Shown here: piece after piece, positions 1 through 28,351 of the stretch
Layout: each line of letters begins with the position of its first letter
Numbering within the stretch: position 1 is the stretch's first letter
Assembly (NCBI GenBank): GCA_958298945.1
Contig: OY282610.1
Coordinates: 34,293,667 to 34,357,666, forward strand
Origin: Atherix ibis
Taxonomy: Eukaryota; Arthropoda; Insecta; Diptera; Athericidae
Reading direction: 5' to 3'
Length of the DNA: 64,000 nucleotides
Made by a program: the position numbers and the translations under genes
The notes under the pieces: model-generated
Seen by the model: only the letters and a program-made list of their open reading frames with translations
What the model was told of the DNA's origin: nothing
The model's database searches: none

Positions 1-243
1 TATTTTTGTATGCCAAAAATGTTATTTTTGAAAAAAAAACCTCACTCCGATGTAGGAGTAATTTTTTTAAAAGTAAATTTAATGAACTGCTCTCATAACC
101 TCACATTAACGTACGAATTCTGTTCAAAAAGTATTGCGCATTTCCGCGGGTTACGTACATTCGATTTTTTGTGGCGTTATGTTGATACTCATGTCTCTTA
201 CTTATGCCTACAAGTTCGGCCATTTTGAATGTTCAGTTAATTT

Positions 244-911
244 TTGACAGCTGCTTTGCTTGCACGTGTTTTGGATCGTCTTCAATTTTTGCCCATTTTT
301 GACCAAAAACAGCATCGCATTAACATTGCTAAGGAGCGGTTGGACTCTGTCCGCGATGACCCAAATTTGCTCCAGACAGTCATAACTGGTGACGAATCAT
401 GGGTTTATGGTTATTATGTTAAAACCAAAGCTCAATCATCCCAATGGAAGCTGCTGCACGAGCCAAGACCGAAAAAAGCGAGCCAAGTTCGGTCGAATGT
501 GAATGTTTTGCTTACAGTTTCTTTTGATTGCAGGGGCGTGGTGCATCTTGCCACAGAGTAAAACGGTCAATTAGGAATAGTGCCTGCAAGTTATGCGCAA
601 GTTGCGCTAAGCAATCTGCCAGAAACGCCCGGATTTGTGGAAGAACAGAAATTGGCTTTTGCACCATTATAACGCCCCTATTCACGCATCGTTGCTTGTG
701 CGCGAATTTTCGGTCAAAAATAATACATTCCTCAGATCTGGCCCCCTGTGAATTTTTCTTGCTCCCGAAACTGAAGATCCCCATGAAAGGACGACGCTAC
801 GCTACGATTGAGGAGATAAAGACGGCATCGAAGGAGGAGCTGAACAAGATCACAAAAAAATGATTTTTTGAAGTGCAAGTGTATAATATCTGATGGGGAT
901 TACTTTGAATA
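244..911 (+). mobile_element. Degenerate mariner (DD34D-type) transposase relic
   Basis: Mariner transposase remnant without a usable start. The region around 380-405 reads as the first catalytic block (TGDESW). It is followed by the Q-SSQWK and PRPKKA blocks typical of mariners. The rest needs frame changes. Near 660 the second catalytic block reads HHYNAP, so Asp has become Tyr. Near 735-755 the third reads SSDLAPCEFF, so the last Asp has become Glu, and the residues normally before it are deleted. The last recognisable words are KGRRYATIEEIKTASKEELNKI (808-855), then a tail ending near 911 that matches the usual C-terminal GDYFE. I found no convincing TIRs. The copy is certainly dead; the subfamily is uncertain. 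Confidence 0.8.
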
Positions 912-1635
912 AGTTCTTTTAACCTTACATTTAGATTTTCCTAACCTCACATTTACGTTTTATTTAACCTCAAATTATCATTATTAGTTATCTTACATTA
1001 GTAAATATATCAAAGACCGTTGTAGAAAAAAAATTATATTTCTCGACTAATATTATCACTTGAGGGGGTAATCTTAGTTCCAAGTATGGGTGACATCCGT
1101 GAGGAATTTTAACAATTTTATTGTCATATTATCCAGAAATGGATTGACAATCAAGAATGTAAAAATAAATTAATAGCAAATCGATCTCGACAGAATAATC
1201 GAACTTAGTTCATAGGCCAATATGCAAATACGATCGTTTTTGCTGCATTTTCTTTAACAAAATCTCTGAATTTTCTCCACACGATAGAAGCTGTCTGTCA
1301 ACTGATTAATTCCATAGTACAATAGTTAGTAGCTGAACTAAAAATGGATATCGAAAATTCTATACAATTTCCAACTTTCCAAATAATAATAATGAGGAGT
1401 CCAAATCAGTACCGACCACCAGCAGAACAGTCGAATAACAATTAGCATAAAAACTTTGTTGATTGCGTCTTCCGAGCAGGCCTTATGGGAGTATGTAAAT
1501 TTTGCCACATAAACGGTTGGAGCATAATCTATTTGGCATTTTGTGTTTTTGAACGGCTGCTGACTTGTTTTGCATAGAATTTCCAATGCAAAAAGTAAAT
1601 AACCAAGTTTCGTTGTAATTTTCCACATCTGGTGT
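912..1635. other. AT-rich spacer, no gene seen
   Basis: Non-coding DNA between two mariner insertions. Short ORFs here are low-complexity or shadows. The stretch 920-1000 has three degenerate 'taacctca(c)att' phrases that also occur near 97-110, which might be decayed ends of the mariner relic to the left. Confidence 0.5.
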
Positions 1636-1637
1636 TA

Positions 1638-1667
1638 CGTGGGCTACTATATATATTTCTGGCCTAA
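1638..1667. repeat. Left TIR of mariner 1638-2969
   Basis: Pairs as an inverted repeat with 2940-2969 with one mismatch in the outer 27 bases. It is flanked outside by TA and would be the transposase binding site. Confidence 0.92.
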
Positions 1668-1713
1668 TAATGAAAATGCGAATATTTATCAACGAAAAAG
1701 GTTTTATTGTTTT

Positions 1714-1781
1714 ATATTCTCCATCAAGATTTATACACGAATATTTATTAAACAAAATATTCTCCATCAAGATTTATACAC
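1714..1781. repeat. 25-bp direct duplication across transposase tail
   Basis: The 25 bases at 1757-1781 encode the conserved C-terminal words CINLDGEY on the minus strand. They recur exactly at 1714-1738, 43 bp further on, inside the 3' UTR. The second copy is outside the ORF and does not affect the protein. Confidence 0.85.
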
Positions 1782-2794
1782 TTTTGCATGCGCTCAAACC
1801 AATTTTCGAAGCACTTTTTCCACTCCGATTGAGACACCTCCAAAACATGGTTTTTGAATGCTTCAACAGCATCTTCTGGCGACGAAAATCGTTGACCACG
1901 CATTTTTTTCTTGATGTGTGGGAATAAAAAGAAGTCATTGGGTGCCAAGTCAGGGCTGTACGGAGGATGACCCATCAATTCGACGTTTTGTCCGGTCAAA
2001 AAGGCGCTGGTTTGAGCCGATGTGTGAGAGCTCGCATTGTCATGGTGCACAATGATTCGACTTCTCTTGTTCGTTTTTCGAATTTCTCCGAAGACTTCAG
2101 GCAAACAAATGGTGGTGTACCACTCAGAATTGACCGTCCTACGTTGCACAAGCGGAACAGTCGCCACATGACCAGTTTTGCCAAAGAAACAAGCGACCAT
2201 TTGCTTCGAAGTGCTTCTTCCACGAACAACTTTCGTTGGATTTGACTCGTCTTGGAAGACCCACACGGTCGATTGCTGTTTTGTTTCGGGCTCATACGCA
2301 TAGATCCATGATTCGTCACCTGTGACGATCTTATAAACGTCTTTTGAAGCACCGCGATCGTATTTTTTCAGCATTTCTTTACACCAATCCACACGAGCCT
2401 TTTTTTGAGCGATTGTCAAATTGTGCGGGATCCAACGAGAACAAACCTTTTTTACGGCCAGGTGTTCATGCAATATCGAATGTATGCTGGTGGGAGAAAT
2501 GCCTAGGCATGCCTCTATCTCACGGTATGTCACATGACGGTCTTGCATTATCAGTTCACGTACGGCATCGATGTTTTCTGGAACAACGGCTGTTTTTGGA
2601 CGACCTTCACGGAATTCGTCTTTGAGCGAGCGTCGGCCACGATTGAATTCGTTGTACCAGTTTTTCACAGTGCTATAGGATGGTGCTTCATAGCCATACA
2701 AAGATTTAAGTTCATCGATGCACTCTTGTCGTGATAATCCACGTCGAAAGTTGTGAAAAATGATCGCACGAAAATGTTCACGAGTTAATTCCAT
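1748..2794 (-). CDS. Mariner transposase, full length (DD34D)
   Basis: A 348-residue transposase, the usual size for mariner, that would cut and paste its own element by binding the TIRs. The N-terminal third holds the paired helix-turn-helix region, with the linker words VKNWYNEFNRGRRSLKDEFREGRP; this is followed by WIPHNLT, corresponding to the WVPHEL motif. The catalytic triad is complete: Asp in TGDESW (about residue 160), Asp in HHDNASSHT (about 250) and Asp in SPDLAPNDFF, with 34 residues between the last two. The C-terminus reads CINLDGEYFV, a normal mariner ending. The Met chosen is the first in frame and matches the family start (MELTREHFR). No stop or frameshift is visible, so activity is plausible but unproven. 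Confidence 0.93.
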   Translation of the reverse strand: MELTREHFRAIIFHNFRRGLSRQECIDELKSLYGYEAPSYSTVKNWYNEFNRGRRSLKDEFREGRPKTAVVPENIDAVRELIMQDRHVTYREIEACLGISPTSIHSILHEHLAVKKVCSRWIPHNLTIAQKKARVDWCKEMLKKYDRGASKDVYKIVTGDESWIYAYEPETKQQSTVWVFQDESNPTKVVRGRSTSKQMVACFFGKTGHVATVPLVQRRTVNSEWYTTICLPEVFGEIRKTNKRSRIIVHHDNASSHTSAQTSAFLTGQNVELMGHPPYSPDLAPNDFFLFPHIKKKMRGQRFSSPEDAVEAFKNHVLEVSQSEWKKCFENWFERMQKCINLDGEYFV

Positions 2795-2939
2795 TTTTTT
2801 GCCAAATTGATTTTTTCAAGTCACTGTAAACAACACAAATGATAGTCGTACGTCAAAACGTTCTGAGTACGTTTATGCTAAAAAATGTCAAACTTTCCAA
2901 TGGAAATGTCAGATCGCACCTGGCAACACTTAGTGTTGC

Positions 2940-2969
2940 CTAGGCCAGAAATATATATAGTAGCCTACG
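2940..2969. repeat. Right TIR of mariner 1638-2969
   Basis: Inverted counterpart of the left end. Followed by TA at 2970-2971. It lies about 145 bp upstream of the transposase start, so the promoter and 5' UTR would be within 2795-2939. Confidence 0.92.
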
Positions 2970-2971
2970 TA

Positions 2972-4986
2972 CTTGTGCATTTCGGAATAGGTACTGGTGT
3001 CCATAAGGGATGGGATTATTGGCGCTAACATTAGCTATTTCCGGCCAAACGTGCCAACATGGACGAATGCACAAACTATTCGCACACGGATCCCTCCCTG
3101 ACCGTTGATTATTATTATTAACGTAAGAGTACATGCCTTGGTACTCGTACATCATGAATTTTAGAAAAGTTTGCCTTTTTTTTGTGATAATATGATTGGG
3201 TCGTTATGATTCCATAGTGCTGGGACGTTGATGACTTATTCTGAATATGCCCATATTTTCAGATTCAATCGACTGATGAAGATACATGATTAGTGAGTAG
3301 TGATGCTTGATTGTTACCGTCGTGATGGGTTGCTTGGTTTTCTGCTTCAGGTCAGTACTAATTGTGTCGTTTACCTTCACTATTGGTCCGAAACCCGTTC
3401 GTCAAGACTATCAACACGATGCACAAAAATTACCCATCGGCAAAAAAGAAACTTGACAAAACCAACCACAATAACCGCAATGGGAAATATACGATAGAAA
3501 CGACGAAGAAGAACACCGAATTGAATACTATCAACACACCATCTCCACCAATAAGCCTTTTGGCGACGACAAGTAATTTTTGACATTCATTTGCGACAAA
3601 CCATCGATTACCAAAGATCGATTTGCATTCTTTGCGGTTATTCCTAAGAAATTCGATAATAGTCTTTGGTAATTTTTTCTAAAAATTTCAGCTCTTTTTA
3701 TTGTGTTTATTATTACTGGAAAAATTTTATGATTTCCATTTTCACATAATTCTTTTGTATTTGAAATCCATTTTTCCCCTCAGACAATTCTAATCATGAC
3801 TTAAGTGATCATATAAAAAGATGACTACATCCTACCTAGATGGGACCTAGTTTATTTCAGATTTGAGTGGGCGCAGCTTCTTCAAAATGAATAAATTGAT
3901 TGCGGATACGTTTAATTTTATATTTATTATTGTATTATTCTTCTTTTTTTTTGTCGAATTTTTATGATTAAATATGATGCCATAAGACTTTTTAAAGTTA
4001 ATCGTATATGGTTTATGAGTATAAACTTTACAAGTTGTCGTAGATTTAGTCTCCAAGTTTTTGAATTTGAATTTTACAATAATTGATAAACTAAGAAATC
4101 AGTAATAAATTTTTTTTTTATTTTGTTTTTTTAAGAAACAATTTTTTTTAACATCTGGCAAGAAAATAGAGGTTTAAGTTTTGTAATTTCATAGAATTTT
4201 GAGGTTAGTAAAGAAAAACCGGTTTAAGCTTTTTAATTTTGATGTTTGGGAAAAAAATATTTTGGCACCTTTAACACGAAAGTAGAACTAATGTTATTGT
4301 AGGAGTTTGACGATGGGCTAATTGCGATTATAATTTTGAAAATGTTAGCTTATTCCAATAGAGCTTATACGTTTATGTGGGGTCCGAATTTGAACTGGCT
4401 ATTTTTTGGGCTCTGAAGAATATATTTTTGAGATCTTTGAATATTAAAGTTAACCGATATCGCTACATGGTTTTTAAGATCTCAATTATAAGGGTAAGAC
4501 GATATTATTATATTGACTCTATAATGTGTTATTTAACGGCCAGTCCAGATAATATTTTTTTTAAAGGACCTCAATTACTGGGGTAAGGGTATATTATATT
4601 GTTGATCTCTTTGACCATTAAATTATAGTCAATATTTATAATTTGGAGTCTCAACCCTCAATTACTAGAGAAAAACAATATCATTATGTGAACTCTAGAG
4701 TGTCTTTGTGATCTTTAGCTACTGCTTAAGCTTACCTAATATTGCTATGGGAATCTTGAGATCTAAATTACAAGGATAAAAGGATATAATTATATGTACT
4801 CTAGGATATGTTGCATTTTTCGCACAGTCGTGGAAATATATTTTTGTAGTCTTTATCTATTAAAGCTTAGCTTATATAGCTATGGAATCTTGAGACCCCC
4901 ATTAACAAAATGATACGTTATAATTATATATGCTCAAGGATATGTTTAATTTAATACGTAGGCTAGACAATAAATTTTTGAAGTCC
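2972..4986. other. Spacer; no identifiable gene
   Basis: AT-rich DNA, possibly intron or upstream region of the peptide gene at 5493. Two less AT-rich islands (about 2985-3160 and 3300-3590) hold short ORFs on both strands that match nothing I recognise. From 4260 to 4980 the text 'gaactctagagtgt / tatgtact-ctaggatatg / tatgctcaaggatatg' recurs in diverged form about every 130 bp, suggesting an old tandem repeat. No signal-peptide exon was recognised here. Confidence 0.4.
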
Positions 4987-5185
4987 TACTCTTGTGTTAT
5001 TTTAAGGTTTTCGATCATTTTGCTTTATCTGTCCTTTTTCAGTGTTCGGCCATTTTGACAATTTCTGGCAATTTTTCATGTTTCGGCCATTTTGAAGATT
5101 TCTGTCAACGTTCGATATTCGACCATTTTGACAATTTCTGTCATTTTTGTATATTTCGGCCATTTTGACGATTTCTGCCATATCA
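4987..5185. repeat. 36/37-bp minisatellite, first copy (about 4 units)
   Basis: Begins with a leader (ctcttgtgttatttt-aggttttcgatcat) and continues as about four diverged units. Each contains the core cggccattttgacaatttct. Units alternate between a 36-base form starting gttcgg and a 37-base form starting gtttcgg, so the true period is a dimer of about 73 bp. The same leader plus array is at 7213-7660. Confidence 0.85.
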
Positions 5186-5492
5186 TTACATGATGTCAAG
5201 GTTATATTTCCTAATGCATAGTCCAGAGACTATATTATTGAGGTCATTAGGACTATAAGAATATTACTTTTTAAAAAATCATATTAACAGCAAATTAAAT
5301 ACTCATTAAAAAAGTAATATTGAGAGAGAAAAATACCCATTCTTGTATAGCTAAAATTTTTTTTATAAAAAAAAAAATCTTTTTACGCGAAAGGACGAAT
5401 ATTTGTGCAATTTCGTTTTTATTAAAAATATCTAAAATTACGAAAATATAAAAATCAATTATTTTAAATTATAATTTTTTTTGTCTTTCCAG

Positions 5493-5565
5493 ATGCGGAT
5501 ATGAGCTATCCTGGCAACTACTTGGATGACGTAATGTCTGAATCAGTCGGTAGTCCAGCTGAGAA
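5493..5565 (+). CDS. Agatoxin-like peptide precursor, propeptide exon (internal)
   Basis: A 73-base internal exon. Upstream is a strong acceptor (polypyrimidine ...ttttttttgtctttccag, AG at 5491-5492); downstream is a consensus donor, gtaagt at 5566. It enters with two bases completing a codon from an unseen upstream exon, and leaves with two bases (AA) of the next codon. It encodes 23 full codons, acidic and Ser/Pro/Gly-rich (SYPGNYLDDVMSES), as expected for a propeptide. The split codon at its 3' end becomes the Lys of a Lys-Arg cleavage site when joined to the next exon. The signal-peptide exon is not recognised in this window. Confidence rests on exact phase continuity into the cysteine-rich exon. 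Confidence 0.82.
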
Positions 5566-5799
5566 GTAAGTTTATTTTTAAAAACATTTCATATTTTAAG
5601 ATAGGGTAGATTTTTTTTTTCAAAAATTTATTGAAAACAAATAGAATATTTTTATTTATACACAAACATAAATACAAATTCATATATGAGTACATTCGTT
5701 CATCTTTGCATACATAAGAATTTTTTTTATATACGAACGTATAGAATTTTTATACCATCTAATTTCTGTTAGACGGTCTTCCCTAATCTATGTTTTTAG
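5566..5799 (+). other. Intron between the two ALP exons
   Basis: A 234-bp, very AT-rich intron with donor gtaagt (5566-5571), acceptor tttttag (AG at 5798-5799) and a possible branch point near cctaatctat (5783-5792). Phase 2. Small introns of this kind are normal for insects. Confidence 0.82.
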
Positions 5800-5935
5800 G
5801 CGAGGATGCATTCATCGGGGTGGAAATTGTGATCACAGACCAAATGACTGCTGCTACAGTAGCTCTTGTCGATGCAACTTATGGGGTTCAAATTGCCGAT
5901 GTCAACGAGTTGGCCTATTCCAAAAATGGGGTTAA
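5800..5935 (+). CDS. Agatoxin-like peptide (ALP), terminal exon with eight-cysteine mature peptide
   Basis: The final exon begins with the last base of the split Lys codon, then Arg, completing a dibasic prohormone-convertase site. The predicted mature peptide follows directly, is about 43 residues long, and ends at TAA 5933-5935. It has eight cysteines spaced C-x6-C-x6-CC-x4-C-x-C-x6-C-x-C, an inhibitor-cystine-knot pattern, with HRPNDCCY and a LFQKWG ending. The last residue is Gly, which fits C-terminal amidation. From family knowledge, this pattern and ending fit the ALP family: spider-toxin-like peptides that insects express in the neuroendocrine system, secreted after disulphide formation. 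The function of insect ALP is not established; I infer a hormone-like role, not venom. The overlapping + frame ORF at 5790-6005 is a shadow. Confidence 0.88.
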
Positions 5936-7212
5936 ACATCTTTTACGTCTAATCATGAAATTTCTATTTTTATTAATATTAAATTTTTGTTTAAAATTAT
6001 TTTAATAAAAGACCTCCTTGTTTTCATTAATTTTTTTTTTTGCTTTTTTAAAAAAAAAAAAAAAAACTTTTTGGTTTGGTTTCTTTTTTTCAATTTATTT
6101 CTTTTCTTTTGATGCATTTAGAATTTTCTCTTTTAATTTCGATAATTTGTACTTTTAAGTGAGTTATTTGTTTTAAAAAGTATATTTGTATTTTTCAATG
6201 TAATTTCTTTTCAATTTTTTTATATTAATAATTATATTTAATTTAATAATAAATGGAAAACAATAATGATAAACCGGTCATATTTATCCTGGCTAACTAA
6301 CTGTTCAACCGATTCAGCGCGTTTAAACTACGAACTTTTTAAATAAACTTAATGTTAATCAAAATATATAATTATATATAAATATATTTAGAGAGAAAAA
6401 AATACCAAAAAAAAAATATAAATATATATACGTGTATATATATATCTATAAACTTTCTATATAATAAAAAAAAAAGTTATTTACATAATTCCATTGATAT
6501 TCGTTGTAATTTGTTCAGAAGAAATAATATCCAATAAAATTAACTAATATGCATACATACATACATTTATAAAAATTATTATATTTATTCATAAAATGTA
6601 AAAAAATATTCTTCCAAATATAATAAATATATTTTCAAACAAAAATAAAACAAAAATTTAATAATAAAAAATAAGTAACATAAAAATAAGGAGAAAAGTT
6701 CTTATCATAAATAATTATATCATTATATATAAAATACCAATTTAAAAAATATTCATTAAATGTTCAGTTATATATACTACATAATAAATATTATAAAATG
6801 GAAAAGAAATGCATAAATACGAGGTACACATCTATGAATGTTTCAAAGAAAAATGAAATTATAATTATAATTATAGTCAAATATTATCAGCAAATAAATA
6901 ATAATGGTGGTAATTGAATTGAAAATTGTCAGAAGAGTAATAAGTAAAATATTAACAATCTTGCATTCGATTATCGCTAAAGTTCTGGTTTTTCTAATAT
7001 TAAAAATTTATTTTCGATAATAAATACTATATATTGTGAGAATTTGCAATTAAGATAAAGAATATCATTAAAATAATATTTTTTTTAAAAATAACAAACA
7101 TATAATACAATACGTCAGAATTATAAATTTTTTTAAAATGAACTTCTTGAGAGAAAAAACAGCGAAAAGTGAAACATTTTAAATAATATGACCGCAAGAA
7201 AAATTCTAAATA
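5936..7212 (+). other. ALP 3' UTR and AT-rich downstream DNA
   Basis: No further coding sequence seen. Homopolymer runs (A18 around 6050-6066), TA-rich tracts and multiple AATAAA words. The 3' UTR end cannot be fixed from sequence alone. Confidence 0.5.
6004..6009 (+). promoter_or_regulatory. Candidate polyadenylation signal for ALP
   Basis: AATAAA lies 69 bases after the stop codon, followed by a T-rich stretch. Further AATAAA words occur downstream in this AT-rich DNA, so longer 3' UTRs are possible. Confidence 0.5.
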
Positions 7213-7660
7213 CTAACTCTTGTGTTATTTTTAGGTTTTCGATCATATTGCTTTATCTGTAATTTTCCAATGTTCGGCCATTTTGACAATTTCTGTCATT
7301 TTTTTTTGTGTTTCGGCCATCTTGCAGATTTCTGTCAACTCTCGATGTTCGGCCATTTTGATGATTTCTGTTATTTTTTAATGTTTCGGCCATTTTGCAG
7401 ATTTCTGTCAGCTTTCAATGTTCGGATATTTTGAAAATTTCTGCCAACATTACATGTTTCAGTCATTTTACAGATTTCTGTCAACTTTTGATGATCGGCC
7501 ATTTTGACGGTTTCTGGCAAGTTTTCATGTTTCGGCCATTTTGACGATTTATGTAATTTTTCCATGTTTCGGCAATTTTGTAAATTTCTGTCAGAATTCT
7601 ATGTTCGGCCATTTTGCCGATTTCTGGTAACTTTTCATGTTTCGGCCATTTTGCATATTT
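7213..7660. repeat. 36/37-bp minisatellite, second copy (about 11 units)
   Basis: Same leader as at 4987 followed by about eleven units of the cggccattttg...atttctg core, alternating 36- and 37-base versions. Together with the first copy it brackets the two ALP exons in direct orientation. The open frames through it on both strands are by-products of the repeat. Confidence 0.88.
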
Positions 7661-18629: not shown

Positions 18630-19921
18630 CGAGGATCATTCAACAAGTACTTAGACTCACCGCCCGATAGAACTGCTGTCACAAAAGGAATTTACCATCG
18701 TGTAGTACATTCTTTTAATAGCCTACTGTCAAAGTTTCAGTCGATTCCCTTTATTAGTTTTGTTTTGAGAGCCTTTGAAAGCGAGCTTGTCGGTCGGTTG
18801 CACAAAAATGGAAAAAGAACAATATCGTTCGGTGATTAGATTCCTGTTTTTGGAAGGGAAAACGCGCAGTGAAATCAAAAATCGCTTGGATGCTGTGTAT
18901 GGTGACTCTTCTCCTTCGATGGCGACCGTCAAGAATTGGTTCAACGAGTTTGTTCGTGGCCGCACGTCTGTTTTTGATGAGCCACGCCCAGGTGTCCCGA
19001 AAACGGTTGCTACGGAAGAAAACGTTAAAATAGTCCACGATCTCGTGTTGGCAGACCGTCGATTGAAGGTTCACGAGATAGCTGAGACTGTGGGCATCGC
19101 AGTAGGAACGGTGCATCATATTCTACACGAAGAACTGGGCATGAGAAAGCTGTCGGCGCGATGGGTGCCGCGTTTGCTCACACCGGAAAACAAGAGCAAT
19201 CGCGAGACCACATCGGCGACGTGTTTGGCGCTGTTTAAGCGCAATCCAGCGGAGTTCTTGCGTCGTTTCGTGACCGTCAACGAAACATGGATTCACTGGT
19301 ACACACCAGAGACCAAGGAACAGTCGAAACAGTGGACTTCACCTGGCGAACGTGCTCCGAAGAAGGCGAAGACTGTTCGATCGGCCGGAGAGGTGATGGC
19401 CACCGTTTTCTGGGATTCACAAGGTGTGATCCACATCGATTACCTCGAGAAGGGTAAAACAATCACGGGGCGCTACTATGCTGACTTATTGGGCCGATTT
19501 GACGTCGAATTGAAGAAAAAGCGTCCCCGCTTTGCGAAGAAAAATGTGCTGTTCCACCACGACAACGCGCCGGCTCATACCTCCGCCGTCGCCATGGCCA
19601 AATTGGTCGAATTGCGCTACGAATTGCTGCCCCATCCACCGTACTCTCCAGATTTGGCCCCCTGTGACTACTTTTTGTTTCCAAACCTGAAAAATTCACT
19701 CGCCGGGAATAGATTTGGGTCGAATGAGGAGGTCATCGTCGCCACGGAGGCCAATTTAGCTTCCCTCGAGAAAATGTATTTTTTGGACGGGTTAAAAAAA
19801 TTAGAGCATCGCTGGGCCAAGTGTATCGAGCTTGAAGGAGATTATGTGGAAAAATAAATTGCCACCTTTCCAAAATTTTCGTTTTTCTTTTGTAGGCTAA
19901 GTACTTGTTGAATGACCCTCG
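18630..19921 (+). mobile_element. Irritans-like mariner, near-complete
   Basis: A 1292-bp element. The right end, reverse complemented, reads CGAGGGTCATTCAACAAGTA and the left end reads CGAGGATCATTCAACAAGTA, one mismatch. TA follows the right end (19922-19923); the left flanking dinucleotide is GT, so the TSD is imperfect. A close relative in opposite orientation is at 47453-48711. Confidence 0.9.
18808..19857 (+). CDS. Mariner transposase, full length but first catalytic Asp is Asn
   Basis: A 349-residue ORF of normal length. The start at MEKEQYRSVIR (18808) is preferred over the upstream in-frame Met at 18775 because irritans-group proteins start with MEK. The N-terminal HTH region and FNEFVRGR linker are followed by ARWVPRLL. 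The first catalytic block reads VTVNETWIH: codon AAC at 19279-19281 (residue 158) gives Asn where the 27100 and 47453 copies have Asp. The second (HHDNAPAHT) and third (SPDLAPCDYF) blocks are normal with 34-residue spacing. The protein should fold and bind TIRs but should not cleave. It ends GDYVEK as in its relatives. Confidence 0.92.
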   Translation: MEKEQYRSVIRFLFLEGKTRSEIKNRLDAVYGDSSPSMATVKNWFNEFVRGRTSVFDEPRPGVPKTVATEENVKIVHDLVLADRRLKVHEIAETVGIAVGTVHHILHEELGMRKLSARWVPRLLTPENKSNRETTSATCLALFKRNPAEFLRRFVTVNETWIHWYTPETKEQSKQWTSPGERAPKKAKTVRSAGEVMATVFWDSQGVIHIDYLEKGKTITGRYYADLLGRFDVELKKKRPRFAKKNVLFHHDNAPAHTSAVAMAKLVELRYELLPHPPYSPDLAPCDYFLFPNLKNSLAGNRFGSNEEVIVATEANLASLEKMYFLDGLKKLEHRWAKCIELEGDYVEK

Positions 19922-23002: not shown

Positions 23003-24536
23003 AATTTTTCAACATAATCTCCTTTTTATGTTCTATACACTTTTCCAACCTTTTTTCCAAAATTTTTATCCCCTCCAAAAAATAGGATTTCGGAAGTTCT
23101 GCAAAATACTAATCCGTTTGAGCAATGACGTCCTTGTTGGAAGTGAACCGTCGTCCGCCAAGCCATTTCTTCAGATTGGGGAAAAGAAAATAGTCACTCG
23201 GGGCCAAATCTGGTGAATAAGCGGGATGCTGCAACAATTCCATTCTCAATTCCACAATTTTGGCCATGGAAACAGCGCAGGTGTGCACACGCGCATTGTC
23301 CTGATGCAAGAGGATTTTTTCTTCTTCAGATGGGGGCGTTTCTCTTTGATTTCCTCGCTTAACCGTTGCATTAACGACGCGTAATACGCTCCTGTTATTG
23401 TTTTTCCTTTTTCCACAATTTTGGCCATGGAAACAGCGCAGGTGTGCACACGCGCATTGTCCTGATGCAAGAGGATTTTTTCTTCTTTAGATGGGGGCGT
23501 TTCTCTTTGATTTCCTCGCTTAACCGTTGCAATAACGACGCGTAATACGCTCCTGTTATTGTTTTTCCTTTTTCCACAATTTTGGCCATGGAAACAGCGC
23601 AGGTGTGCACACGCGCATTGTCCTGATGCAAGAGGATTTTTTCTTCTTCAGATGGGGGCGTTTCTCTTTGATTTCCTCGCTTAACCGTTGCAATAACGAC
23701 GCGTAATACGCTCCTGTTATTGTTTTTCCTTTTTCCACAATTTTGGCCATGGAAACAGCGCAGGTGTGCACACGCGCATTGTCCTGATGCAAGAGGATTT
23801 TTTTCTTCTTCAGATGAGGGCGTTTCTCTTTGATTTCCTCGCTCAACCGTTGCAATAACGACGCGTAATACGCTCCTGTTATTGTTTTTCCTTTTTCCAA
23901 GTAGTCGATAAAAATGATGCCCTACGAATCCCAAAAGACCGTGGCCATCACCTTGCCGGCCGATGGCACAGTTTTTGCCTTCTTCGGAGCCCGTTCACCC
24001 TTGAAAATCCACTGTGATGACTGTCTCTTTGTTTCTGGAGTGTAGTAGTGTAACCAGGTTTCGTCCACAGTGACATACCGACGAAGGAATTCGGCATGAT
24101 TGCGATGAAAGAGTGCAAACATAGCCTCAGAGTCCACTACACGATTGCGCTTATTCTCCTCTGAGAGCAAACGCGGCACCCATCTTGCCAACATTTTTTT
24201 CACAGACAATTTTTCATGCAAAATTGAAGCGACTGTACCTTGTGATATACCCGTGGCCTCAACTACTTCGCGCACTTTTATTCGCCGATCGTTCAAAATC
24301 AGATCGTGGATTTTGTCGATGATTTCAGGAGTAGACACCTCAACTGGGCGGCCTGAACGATGTGCATCTTTTGTGGATGAACGGCCACGTTTAAATTCAT
24401 TCACCCAATTGTAAACCGTCGCAAACACAGGTGCAGATGTGCCATGAACTGCATGCAACTCGGCTTTGATTTCTTTCGGGCGTAAGGCTTTCAAATGGAG
24501 ATGTTTGATGACAGCCTTAAACTCGCTTTTTTCCAT
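23003..24536 (-). pseudogene. Mariner transposase pseudogene with repeated catalytic core
   Basis: Reading starts at MEKSEFKAVIK (24536) and follows the 27237 protein closely through VTVDETWLHYY (first catalytic Asp present) to ATVFWDS. There a CAG codon has become TAG (stop around 23920). Beyond it, the stretch from KGKTITGAYYASLLQ to HQDNARVHTCAVSMAKIVE is repeated four times. Because 161 is not a multiple of three, each copy changes the reading frame. The last copy continues into ELRMELLQHPAYSPDLAPSDYF and a shifted C-terminus. A functional enzyme is impossible. Confidence 0.93.
23252..23899 (-). repeat. 161-bp tandem repeat, four copies, within transposase
   Basis: The landmark ggccatggaaacagcgcagg occurs at 23262, 23423, 23584 and 23745, exactly 161 bp apart. 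Copies differ at only a handful of bases. The repeat junction joins KIVE to KGK at the five-base word tggaa, which is found at both edges of the normal single copy. Confidence 0.95.
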
Positions 24537-24697
24537 TGTTATGCACAAATAAATGTCGTTAACTTTAATCGACGATAGAAATTGATCTACGCTATGGATC
24601 AAGCTGTCAAAAATGCTACTTACAAAAAAAAAATCTTTACCGACACTACAAGCGCAATTTCTTGGATTTTCTAAGGACTTATTGAACGACCCTCGTA

Positions 24698-27097
24698 TAT
24701 TTTTAATGCTGCGAATTTTCAATAGATGGCGCTGCATTTTGTATGATTTAAATATAAAGTTCTGTTATTTTTGGGACACACTGTGTAAATTGTCCACAAT
24801 GCATTTAATTACGAAAAATCCCCAAAAAATCATAGCGTTCAAATACGTATGATCGATAGTCCATGTGGTATATACCCACGCAAGAAAATTATCAAGAAAA
24901 TTGCAACAAAAAAATAAAATATCTCTTGTTACATAAATTGTAATTGTAAATGTCCATTAAAATTAAGAAGAAAAAAAATAATTGTTAGGAAAAATATCCG
25001 GTATTAGCATAATAATTAATAATATTTAAAATGATGGTATTTTTTTATTTTTTATCTACACAATACCACAAAAGAAAGGAACTGAAAGCTGACATAATAT
25101 ATGGTATGAGAATACTAAATGGATTACTTAAGAAGCTACATCTCCATTACATTTACTTTATGGGCATTTTATATCCATACATGTACTAACTATGTCGTAG
25201 ATAATTAATTCGATAGTATAGATAACAAAGACTATAGGTCTATGATGGTATATTGAAGTTATGGCTTTATTCATATTCGATGTGATCCAATGATGTTGCC
25301 ATCATATTGCATAATTTTTAATTAATTTTCCATTTTTCGATGACATTAATTTCTATTAACTTTTATTTATATCTTTTACCTTCATTTCAAATTGTTTATC
25401 TTTTCCAGATATCTTTAGATATTTGCTATAACCTAGAAAAAAGAGAAAAATATTTAACTTATTTTTTTTTTTTATTTAATATTCACACCATCAGAAAATG
25501 ATAATTTGTCCATAATTTCGGTTTTCAGGTTTCTTTTTTTTTTTTTTTTTATTATTCCTTATTAGAAAAAATTTCTTATTTAAATATGAATAATTTTTAA
25601 ATTTTAATTATTTTCATAAAATTTTTCCAAAATGATTCTTCTAATTGCAAAAATATCGAAAATTCAATAAAAGCTTAATTAACTAAATAACTATCTTTTA
25701 ATTATAATTCTTACTTATAGGTTATAGTTGACGACTTCCTATAATATTTTATTTAATCATCTACGAAAATAAATATTAAATGAAATTTTTCTTCTTATTA
25801 TTGTAAATATTTTATTTATTGTAATTTAGAAATTTATTCGAAGAAAAAAAATCATATTTCACTTAAGAATATTTATTATCTTAGCAAAAACCCCCAACTG
25901 GTCAGATCAAATGTGCACCGTTGAAAGCCCGCAAAAGTTAGTAAGGTTTGGTATGGTCTTTAAGTGTGGTAAGCTTAATAGAAAAAATATTAAGAAAATT
26001 TCAATTTTTGTTGGATAATATCACATAATTCTTATCCGACATGACATTTAGTTGTGGTTTCTTTTTATAATAAAAATGTTGTTTCTACACAAAACCAAAT
26101 TTGTTATTTACTATAAATTGAACTTTGTTATATTCCGAATATTTTTTTTTCTCTTAATTTTAATATCCTTTTTATTTCATTTCTATATAAAAAAACTATT
26201 TGCTTATTTATTATAATATTTGTTTGTTTGTATATTTTATTATACCACAAAATTTTTTTATACAATCTATTATTAAATTTGAGGTAGAAAAGTCCTTTTC
26301 AATATCCGTAGATGCATTCATAAACACGAGTAGTTTCAATCAAATTTCATTTGTAAGATTTCATTTTATTTTTAGAATTTTTTTATTAAATTAATAAAAT
26401 TATTCAAGGTTGAAATATTTGTTATAAATTACGGTTCAGATAAATATACATATTAGTTGGTGATTATTATTTATATTATATATCAGGAAAAACTACTGCA
26501 AGGTCCCCGGAAGATGAGTTCAAATCTAAAAGAGCAAATAATATTCTTTCTCTGTGGATTAGCTACAATTAGCATCAAATTTTGTAAATTAAATAAATTA
26601 TAATTAAAAAAATATGATAAGCTAATTAGTTGTTTTTATTTTTGCTAATAACTTTTTATGATATAATTTTTACTCTAGAATAATTAAAAAACATGTTTAG
26701 TATTATTGAAGAAGAATATATTTTGTATAAAATGAGAAAAAGTTTTAATTTTCATTATGGAAAATTCTCTATTAATTTGTTTTTCAAAATCTAAAATTAT
26801 ACAGGTTTGCATAATTTTAATTTAATATTTAAAAGTCCATTTAATGAATGAATATTTTTGTATAAATTTTCTAAATCGAAATCGACACATTTCAGTATGT
26901 ATTTTTTTTAAGAATTTCATTAATTGTTTCAGGTTTTTTTTACATGAAAATAATAAATATAAATAAAATTATCCATTTTTAATTTGGAGAATTTCCTCTA
27001 CTTAAAAGTGTATAAAATCCGTAATCGGAAAGATATTGTATCACATCGAATCAAAATATCAGCCATATAAGAAAGGTACTTTAATAAATAACGATAA
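24698..27097. other. AT-rich spacer between two sibling mariners
   Basis: No gene or transposon recognised. About 2.4 kb separates the amplified copy from the intact copy, which lie in opposite orientation. Confidence 0.5.
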
Positions 27098-27099
27098 TA

Positions 27100-28351
27100 C
27101 GAGGGTCGTTCAATAAGTCCTTCGAAAATCCAAGAAATTGCGCTCGTAATGTCGGTAAAGATTTTTTTTTTGTAAGTAGCATTATTATCAATTTCTATCG
27201 TCGATTAAAGTTAACGACATTTATTTGTGCATAACAATGGAAAAAAGCGAGTTTAGGGCTGTCATCAAACATCTCCATTTGAAAGGCTTAAGCCCGAAAG
27301 AAATCAAAGCCGAGTTGGATGCAGTTTATGGCACATCTGCACCTGTGTTTGCGATGGTTTACAATTGGGTGAATGAATTTAAACGTGGCCGTTCATCCAC
27401 AAAAGATGAACATCGTTCAGGACGCCCAGTTGAAGTGTCTACTCCTGAAATCATCGACAAAACCCACGATCTGATTTTGAACGATCGGCGAATTAAAGTG
27501 CGCGAATTAGTTGAGGCCACGGGCATATCACAAGGTACAGTCGCTTCAATTTTGCATGAAAAATTGTCTGTGAAAAAAATTTCGGCAAGATGGGTGCCAC
27601 GTTTGCTCTCAGAAGAGAATAAGCGCAATCGTGTAGTGGACTCTGAGGCTATGTTGGCACTCTTTCATCGCAATCCTGCCCAATTCCTTCGTCGATATGT
27701 CACTGTGGACGAAACCTGGATATACTACTACGCTCCAGAAACGAAGAGACAGTCATCGCAGTGGATTTTCAAGGGTGAACGGGCTCCGAAGAAGGCAAAA
27801 ACTGTGCCATCGGCCGGCAAGGTGATGGCCACGGTCTTTTGGGATTCGCAGGGCATCATTTTTATCGACTACTTGGAAAAAGGAAAAACAATAACAGGAG
27901 CGTATTACGCGTCGTTATTGCAACGGTTTAGCGAGGAAATCAAAGAGAAACGCCCCTATCTGAAGAAGAAAAAAATCCTCTTGCATCAGGACAATGCGCG
28001 TGTGCACACCTGCGCTGTTTCCATGGCCAAAATTGTGGAATTGAGAATGGAATTGTTGCAGCATCCCGCTTATTCACCAGATTTGGCCCCGAGTGACTAT
28101 TTTCTTTTCCCCAATCTGAAGAAATGGCTTGGCGGACGACGGTTCACTTCCAACGAGGACGTCATTGCTCAAACGGGTGAGTATTTTGCAGAACTTCCGA
28201 AATCCTATTTTTTGGACGGGATAAAATTTTTGGAAAATCGGTTGGGAAAGTGTATAGAGCTAAGAGGAGATTATGTTGAAAAATAAAATTTTTTTTTTTT
28301 TAAAAACAGTTTTTTTCCATCTTTTTCTAAGGACGTATTGAACGACCCTCG
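27100..28351 (+). mobile_element. Intact irritans-like mariner
   Basis: A 1252-bp element flanked by TA at 27098-27099 and 28352-28353. The left TIR is CGAGGGTCGTTCAATAAGTC; the right, reverse complemented, is CGAGGGTCGTTCAATACGTC. ORF, TIRs and TSD are all present. Confidence 0.95.
27237..28286 (+). CDS. Mariner transposase, apparently intact (DD34D)
   Basis: A 349-residue transposase. The start at MEKSEFRAVIK is preferred to the in-frame Met 12 bases upstream because the sibling and the irritans group begin with MEK. The N-terminus carries the HTH region (PKEIKAELDAVYG, YNWVNEFKRGRSS), then ARWVPRLL. The triad is complete: VTVDETWIYYY, HQDNARVHT and SPDLAPSDYF, with exactly 34 residues between the second and third Asp. 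The C-terminus is KCIELRGDYVEK. No stop or frameshift is present. It is the best candidate for an active enzyme here, and could in principle act on the broken sibling copies whose TIRs match. Confidence 0.95.
   Translation: MEKSEFRAVIKHLHLKGLSPKEIKAELDAVYGTSAPVFAMVYNWVNEFKRGRSSTKDEHRSGRPVEVSTPEIIDKTHDLILNDRRIKVRELVEATGISQGTVASILHEKLSVKKISARWVPRLLSEENKRNRVVDSEAMLALFHRNPAQFLRRYVTVDETWIYYYAPETKRQSSQWIFKGERAPKKAKTVPSAGKVMATVFWDSQGIIFIDYLEKGKTITGAYYASLLQRFSEEIKEKRPYLKKKKILLHQDNARVHTCAVSMAKIVELRMELLQHPAYSPDLAPSDYFLFPNLKKWLGGRRFTSNEDVIAQTGEYFAELPKSYFLDGIKFLENRLGKCIELRGDYVEK

Follow-up and report, generated by a model that had tools for sequence, protein, structure and literature searches.

Does the short interval between positions 5493 and 5935 of a transposon-rich fly sequence belong to a working neuropeptide gene, and if so, where does the rest of that gene lie? 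The window examined here (the whole stretch of DNA analysed, 64,000 nucleotides) had been described in an earlier note as containing two exons with consensus splice sites that join in phase, the split codon completing a Lys-Arg site, and our reading of the sequence confirmed each of these points. On sequence grounds, an agatoxin-like peptide (ALP) gene has its final two coding exons at positions 5493-5565 and 5800-5935. The locus as a whole is very probably an insect ALP neuropeptide gene, apparently intact and probably single-copy, in which three coding exons supply the signal peptide, a propeptide that is short and acidic, and the eight-cysteine peptide. The sequence itself shows the exons with their consensus splice sites in matching phases, the two acceptors, the dibasic sites and the Gly at the C-terminus, and the features within the window are as follows.

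1..5492, plus strand: 3' end of intron 1, with an ORF for a mariner-type transposase on the minus strand (1748-2794); from sequence and Pfam.
5493..5565, plus strand: second coding exon, for the propeptide, entered in phase 1 and left in phase 2, containing GNYLDD and ending with PAE plus the AA of a split Lys codon; from sequence reading and a profile.
5566..5799, plus strand: intron 2, 234 nt long (207 nt in the long isoform), with a gtaagt donor, interrupting the cleavage-site Lys codon; from sequence, its position being as in published ALP genes (PMC8557429).
5773..5799, plus strand: 27 nt by which exon 3 would be lengthened at its 5' end if the alternative upstream acceptor, with its AG at 5771-5772, is used; in frame, nine codons, with an insert profile.
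5800..5935, plus strand: coding exon 3, opening with the final base of the split Lys codon and with Arg, followed by the mature eight-cysteine ALP ending FQKW-Gly and the stop; from sequence reading, Pfam and alignments.
6004..6009, plus strand: AATAAA polyadenylation-type signal, starting 69 nt 3' of the stop; motif only.

Exon 3, whose acceptor (...tatgtttttag) ends at 5799, supplies the G that completes the Lys codon AAG and then reads RGCIHRGGNCDHRPNDCCYSSSCRCNLWGSNCRCQRVGLFQKWG up to the stop codon. The spacing C-x6-C-x6-CC-x4-C-x-C-x6-C-x-C and the terminal Gly are exactly as had been claimed; an aromatic Trp lies between Cys 6 and Cys 7 (CNLWGSNC), and in the C-terminal FQKWG an aromatic residue precedes the Gly, the predicted amidation donor. 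The peptide matches Pfam Toxin_9 over the gathering score (E = 1.4e-5), and a search of 5.8 billion sequences gave one protein of suitable length, from the ant Harpegnathos saltator, which is 89% identical to it (E = 5.4e-20). Relatives were then collected with the Harpegnathos saltator protein as query (171 at E <= 0.1, the best 120 of 171 listed) and with the Hermetia protein (271 at E <= 0.01, the best 120 of 271 listed). Among the matches listed, all relatives with a species name are arthropods, including bees, ants, wasps, beetles, moths, flies, cockroaches, crustaceans, spiders and ticks. The mature part of exon 3 was aligned with 126 of the listed relatives, to which it is 77-95% identical, so that the earlier assignment to the ALP family is upheld by both Pfam and protein comparison. 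The alignment contains 19 invariant columns, which are confined to the mature part because the query sequence spans the mature exon only. The unrelated ORF that had been said to overlap the last exon is indeed present, as an out-of-frame 71-aa ORF at 5790-6005.

The insect ALPs, which bear names such as 'U8-agatoxin-Ao1a-like', 'xibalbin-1' and 'toxin Tbo-IT2-like' (some as isoforms X1 and X2), have the same cysteine pattern, the same FQKWG end and a propeptide ending in KR. The peptide differs from them in detail: its fourth residue is His where most relatives inspected have Arg or Lys, and it contains QRVG in place of the commoner QRMG, a variant also found in Nasonia and some bees.

Exon 2 (73 nt) follows an acceptor (...tctttccag) that ends at 5492 and, entered in phase 1, reads ADMSYPGNYLDDVMSESVGSPAE, then AA, before the gtaagt donor that begins at 5566. 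With a profile of eight fly propeptides, it ranked first among 11,708 six-frame segments with an E-value of 1.9e-5 (next, 2.3). These exons are thus no chance resemblance, judging by the Toxin_9 match, the match to the ant protein and the top rank of exon 2 with the propeptide profile. The NYLDD of exon 2 fits the pattern NYL[DE], which is present in 7 of the 126 aligned relatives, all seven Diptera (flies or midges) by name; 18 rows of the alignment are dipteran, and the other 11 (mosquitoes, a hoverfly and others) are without the pattern. On this single motif, confined to Diptera within the alignment, the host is taken to be a dipteran, and an ant, to which the first protein match had pointed, was rejected. 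The ALPs of Hermetia, Diamesa, Clunio, Chironomus, Polypedilum and Culicoides share this propeptide motif and end their signal region in an NPYLD- or NSYMD-like sequence, whereas the stretch between NYLDD and PAEKR is longer here than in these flies. In the hoverfly Eupeodes corollae, the 155-aa precursor has an additional cysteine-rich module ahead of a normal ALP, apparently the result of duplication within the precursor.

The signal peptide appears to be encoded by a separate first exon. An upstream signal-peptide exon in the phase required by exon 2 had been anticipated in the earlier note, and a candidate with weak profile E-values was found at C6:34105050-34105137, outside the window and 194,021 bp upstream of exon 2. 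It reads MRFFVFAFILSVICLLSLSPANGNPYLDP, then G before a gtaagt donor, and this G completes an Asp codon with the AT of exon 2. Filtering 205 kb of upstream sequence by hydrophobicity at the start, quality of the donor and the phase needed retained four entries in three separate places, of which only this one has the family motif by eye. Two N-terminal profiles (first 32 residues), one built from 26 relatives and one from eight flies, were compared with the 11,708 six-frame segments of at least 15 aa in 264 kb. The candidate ranked first of 11,708 with both, at weak E-values of 0.01 with the 26-relative profile (15.4 bits; runner-up 0.42, 10.3 bits) and 0.035 with the fly profile (13.6 bits; runner-up 0.18, 11.3 bits). 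As these E-values alone are weak, the candidate was accepted on the combination of rank, exact start, phase, donor and PYLD-type motif. Within the window before 5490, ten hydrophobic stretches beginning with ATG were inspected by eye, and none combined the family motif with an in-phase consensus donor. A search of the genome with the full Hermetia precursor returned the mature exon and, at E <= 10, neither the signal nor the propeptide exon. A 301-bp piece around the candidate has its sole full match in the genome at this place, with one 45-bp partial match elsewhere to its intron part.

Acceptance of this exon implies an intron 1 of 194,021 bp, an interval without any N. This distance, together with N-terminal profile E-values of just 0.01 and 0.035, could mean that, with genuine mature and propeptide exons, the distant signal exon is part of another gene, the true first exon lying elsewhere. 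We consider such an arrangement quite unlikely, given that the candidate has the correct strand, phase and gtaagt donor, that it ends in NPYLDP-D, close to the ANPYLD and ANSYMD of relatives, and that it alone has the family motif by eye among the four entries (three places) filtered from 205 kb. The three-exon model is retained, with its first exon as a candidate. According to Thiel et al. 2021 (PMC8557429), ALP and CCWamide genes usually comprise three exons, the first encoding the signal peptide and the last the mature peptide, and an intron interrupts the basic cleavage codon after its second base. The gene model agrees with that description in its three-exon layout (with a candidate first exon), in the mature peptide coming last and in the intron that splits the basic codon. 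In the same source, spiralian CCWamide is treated as the ALP orthologue by precursor and gene structure. The ALP family, its three-exon layout and the intron within the cleavage codon are already published, and the gene here is of a known, conserved type.

Besides the distant signal-peptide exon, the analysis added a second feature to the earlier note, an acceptor ending at 5772. Its use would add KR-SSLIYVF-RR ahead of the mature peptide, corresponding to the insert of insect isoform X1. An equivalent insert is carried by 57 of the 126 aligned relatives and absent in 68, one falling in neither class, and the residues KRSSLIYVFRR are identical in six moth or butterfly rows of the alignment. 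A profile of 54 such inserts was scored against the 421 stop-free blocks of the form AG-27nt-AG on both strands of 264 kb; the block at 5773..5799 scored 29.3 and the next 7.1. A cassette micro-exon within intron 2 was also considered, but the 27 nt adjoin exon 3, which makes an alternative acceptor the simpler reading. The database proteins of the ant Harpegnathos saltator and of a midge seem to run from intron through insert into mature part, which suggests the same layout there. ALP splice forms have been reported from decapods, beetles and a cockroach (PMC4888303, PMC9552230, PMC12604039), and a limited literature search on splice acceptors gave, among the papers it listed, no account of a tandem-acceptor mechanism for ALP isoforms.

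The second acceptor makes alternative splicing plausible at this locus, with acceptor usage being predicted. The predicted precursors are 98 aa (29+1+23+1+44) and, with the nine additional residues, 107 aa, sizes that are common among relatives. Two isoforms nine residues apart likewise occur among insect ALPs, at 98-100 and 107-109 aa in bees and ants, whereas other relatives differ, for example Polistes with 105 and 114 aa. It had been proposed earlier that an intron over the cleavage site would allow splicing to alter processing. The acceptor 27 nt upstream makes that proposal plausible, though both predicted isoforms retain a dibasic site immediately ahead of the mature peptide.

Protein searches, which score only the best candidates, located the mature exon once in the 670-Mb genome (144 contigs), and it is because of this property of the searches that single-copy status is called probable. 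Searches for ALP relatives in viral and prokaryote contigs gave 12 and 32 pattern matches, none of which was confirmed, and Rfam and tRNA searches within the window gave no matches. Several relatives bear toxin names, and the best sequence match among solved structures is Tbo-IT2 (PDB 7ay8, E 4.1e-4), which we take to be a spider toxin, as the names of relatives also indicate. The eight cysteines align over query residues 3-40 with a one-residue gap, and of FQKWG only the first residue is included. A fold model of moderate confidence was obtained (pLDDT 83, pTM 0.54; the other four models 62-68), and its top seven matches in the PDB are spider-toxin chains, with query TM-scores of 0.65-0.73 (up to 0.73 for psalmotoxin 1) and a best E-value of only 0.16. 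These toxin names and the Tbo-IT2 match, along with the presence among the relatives of xibalbin 1, a peptide of the remipede venom gland (PMC5577568), would fit a peptide of the venom or salivary gland in this fly, like its homologues in spiders and remipedes, instead of a neurohormone. That role is highly improbable here, because a single copy was found in the protein searches, the mature sequence is 77-95% identical to the 126 relatives with no venom-like divergence apparent, and venom use is taken by Thiel et al. as a secondary recruitment of the neuropeptide (PMC8557429). A neuropeptide gene remains the preferred reading.

The surroundings of the gene are rich in transposons. The window holds 32 ORFs of at least 100 aa, and the 10 that were run against Pfam (E 0.001) comprise four mariner-type transposases, one reverse transcriptase, one DUF6451 and four unmatched; many long ORFs in intron 1 also resemble mariner transposases by eye, Pfam having covered the window ORFs only. 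The statement in the earlier note that this is the only functional host gene visible here goes too far, as 10 of the 32 ORFs were run against Pfam and four of those are unmatched. Three mariner-type transposase ORFs of 348-360 aa, differing in sequence, are uninterrupted (1748-2794, minus strand; 18775-19857 and 27225-28286, plus strand). At 23250-23899, four tandem copies of 161 bp, 98% alike, overlap minus-strand ORFs with mariner-like sequence, an array that we read as an internally amplified transposon copy beside the transposase ORF 23922-24737. Arrays of a 37-bp repeat with TTCGGCCATTTTG lie at 5028-5177 and 7256-7660, on either side of the ALP exons, and a 16-bp unit containing TTCGGCCATTT is present again at both 20184 and 20661. 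That the exons are a relic pseudogene stranded among these transposons, as the transposon-rich setting and the 194-kb intron 1 might suggest, is hardly tenable, since all three exons are open, the splice sites, phases, dibasic sites, eight cysteines and terminal Gly are intact, the optional nine-codon insert is conserved too, and this is the only copy found in the genome by protein searches.

For the ALP gene model, the tandem acceptors would choose between the 98-aa and 107-aa precursors, and the signal peptide would direct secretion of a knotted peptide from neuroendocrine cells. In the short form, a prohormone convertase would cut after Lys-Arg. In the long form, cuts after both Lys-Arg and Arg-Arg would also release SSLIYVF, and a cut at the first site only could leave an N-terminally extended peptide. 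Fully cleaved, both precursors would yield the same mature peptide, with the C-terminal Gly giving an amidated Trp. The eight-cysteine peptide is expected to adopt an inhibitor cystine knot held by the predicted disulfides, and to act on a receptor in presumed neuroendocrine signalling. ALP masses have been reported from the neurohemal corpora cardiaca of a cockroach (PMC12604039); ALP transcripts also occur in the decapod intestine (PMC4888303), which makes the tissue of action uncertain. A bolder proposal, that the tandem acceptors 27 nt apart act as an ancient, regulated switch whose long form frees SSLIYVF as a second signal while the 194-kb intron 1 delays or gates transcription, strikes us as speculative and unlikely.

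No ALP receptor had been identified as of Thiel et al. 2021 (PMC8557429), which makes a clean gene model useful, the receptor question being one that a model alone does not settle. The result is a near-complete model of an ALP orthologue gene in a fly, whose first exon local annotation would miss. Distinctive at this locus are the transposon-bearing 194-kb intron 1 and the clear tandem-acceptor arrangement, and competing 3' splice sites 27 nt apart may be one genomic source of the two ALP isoforms.
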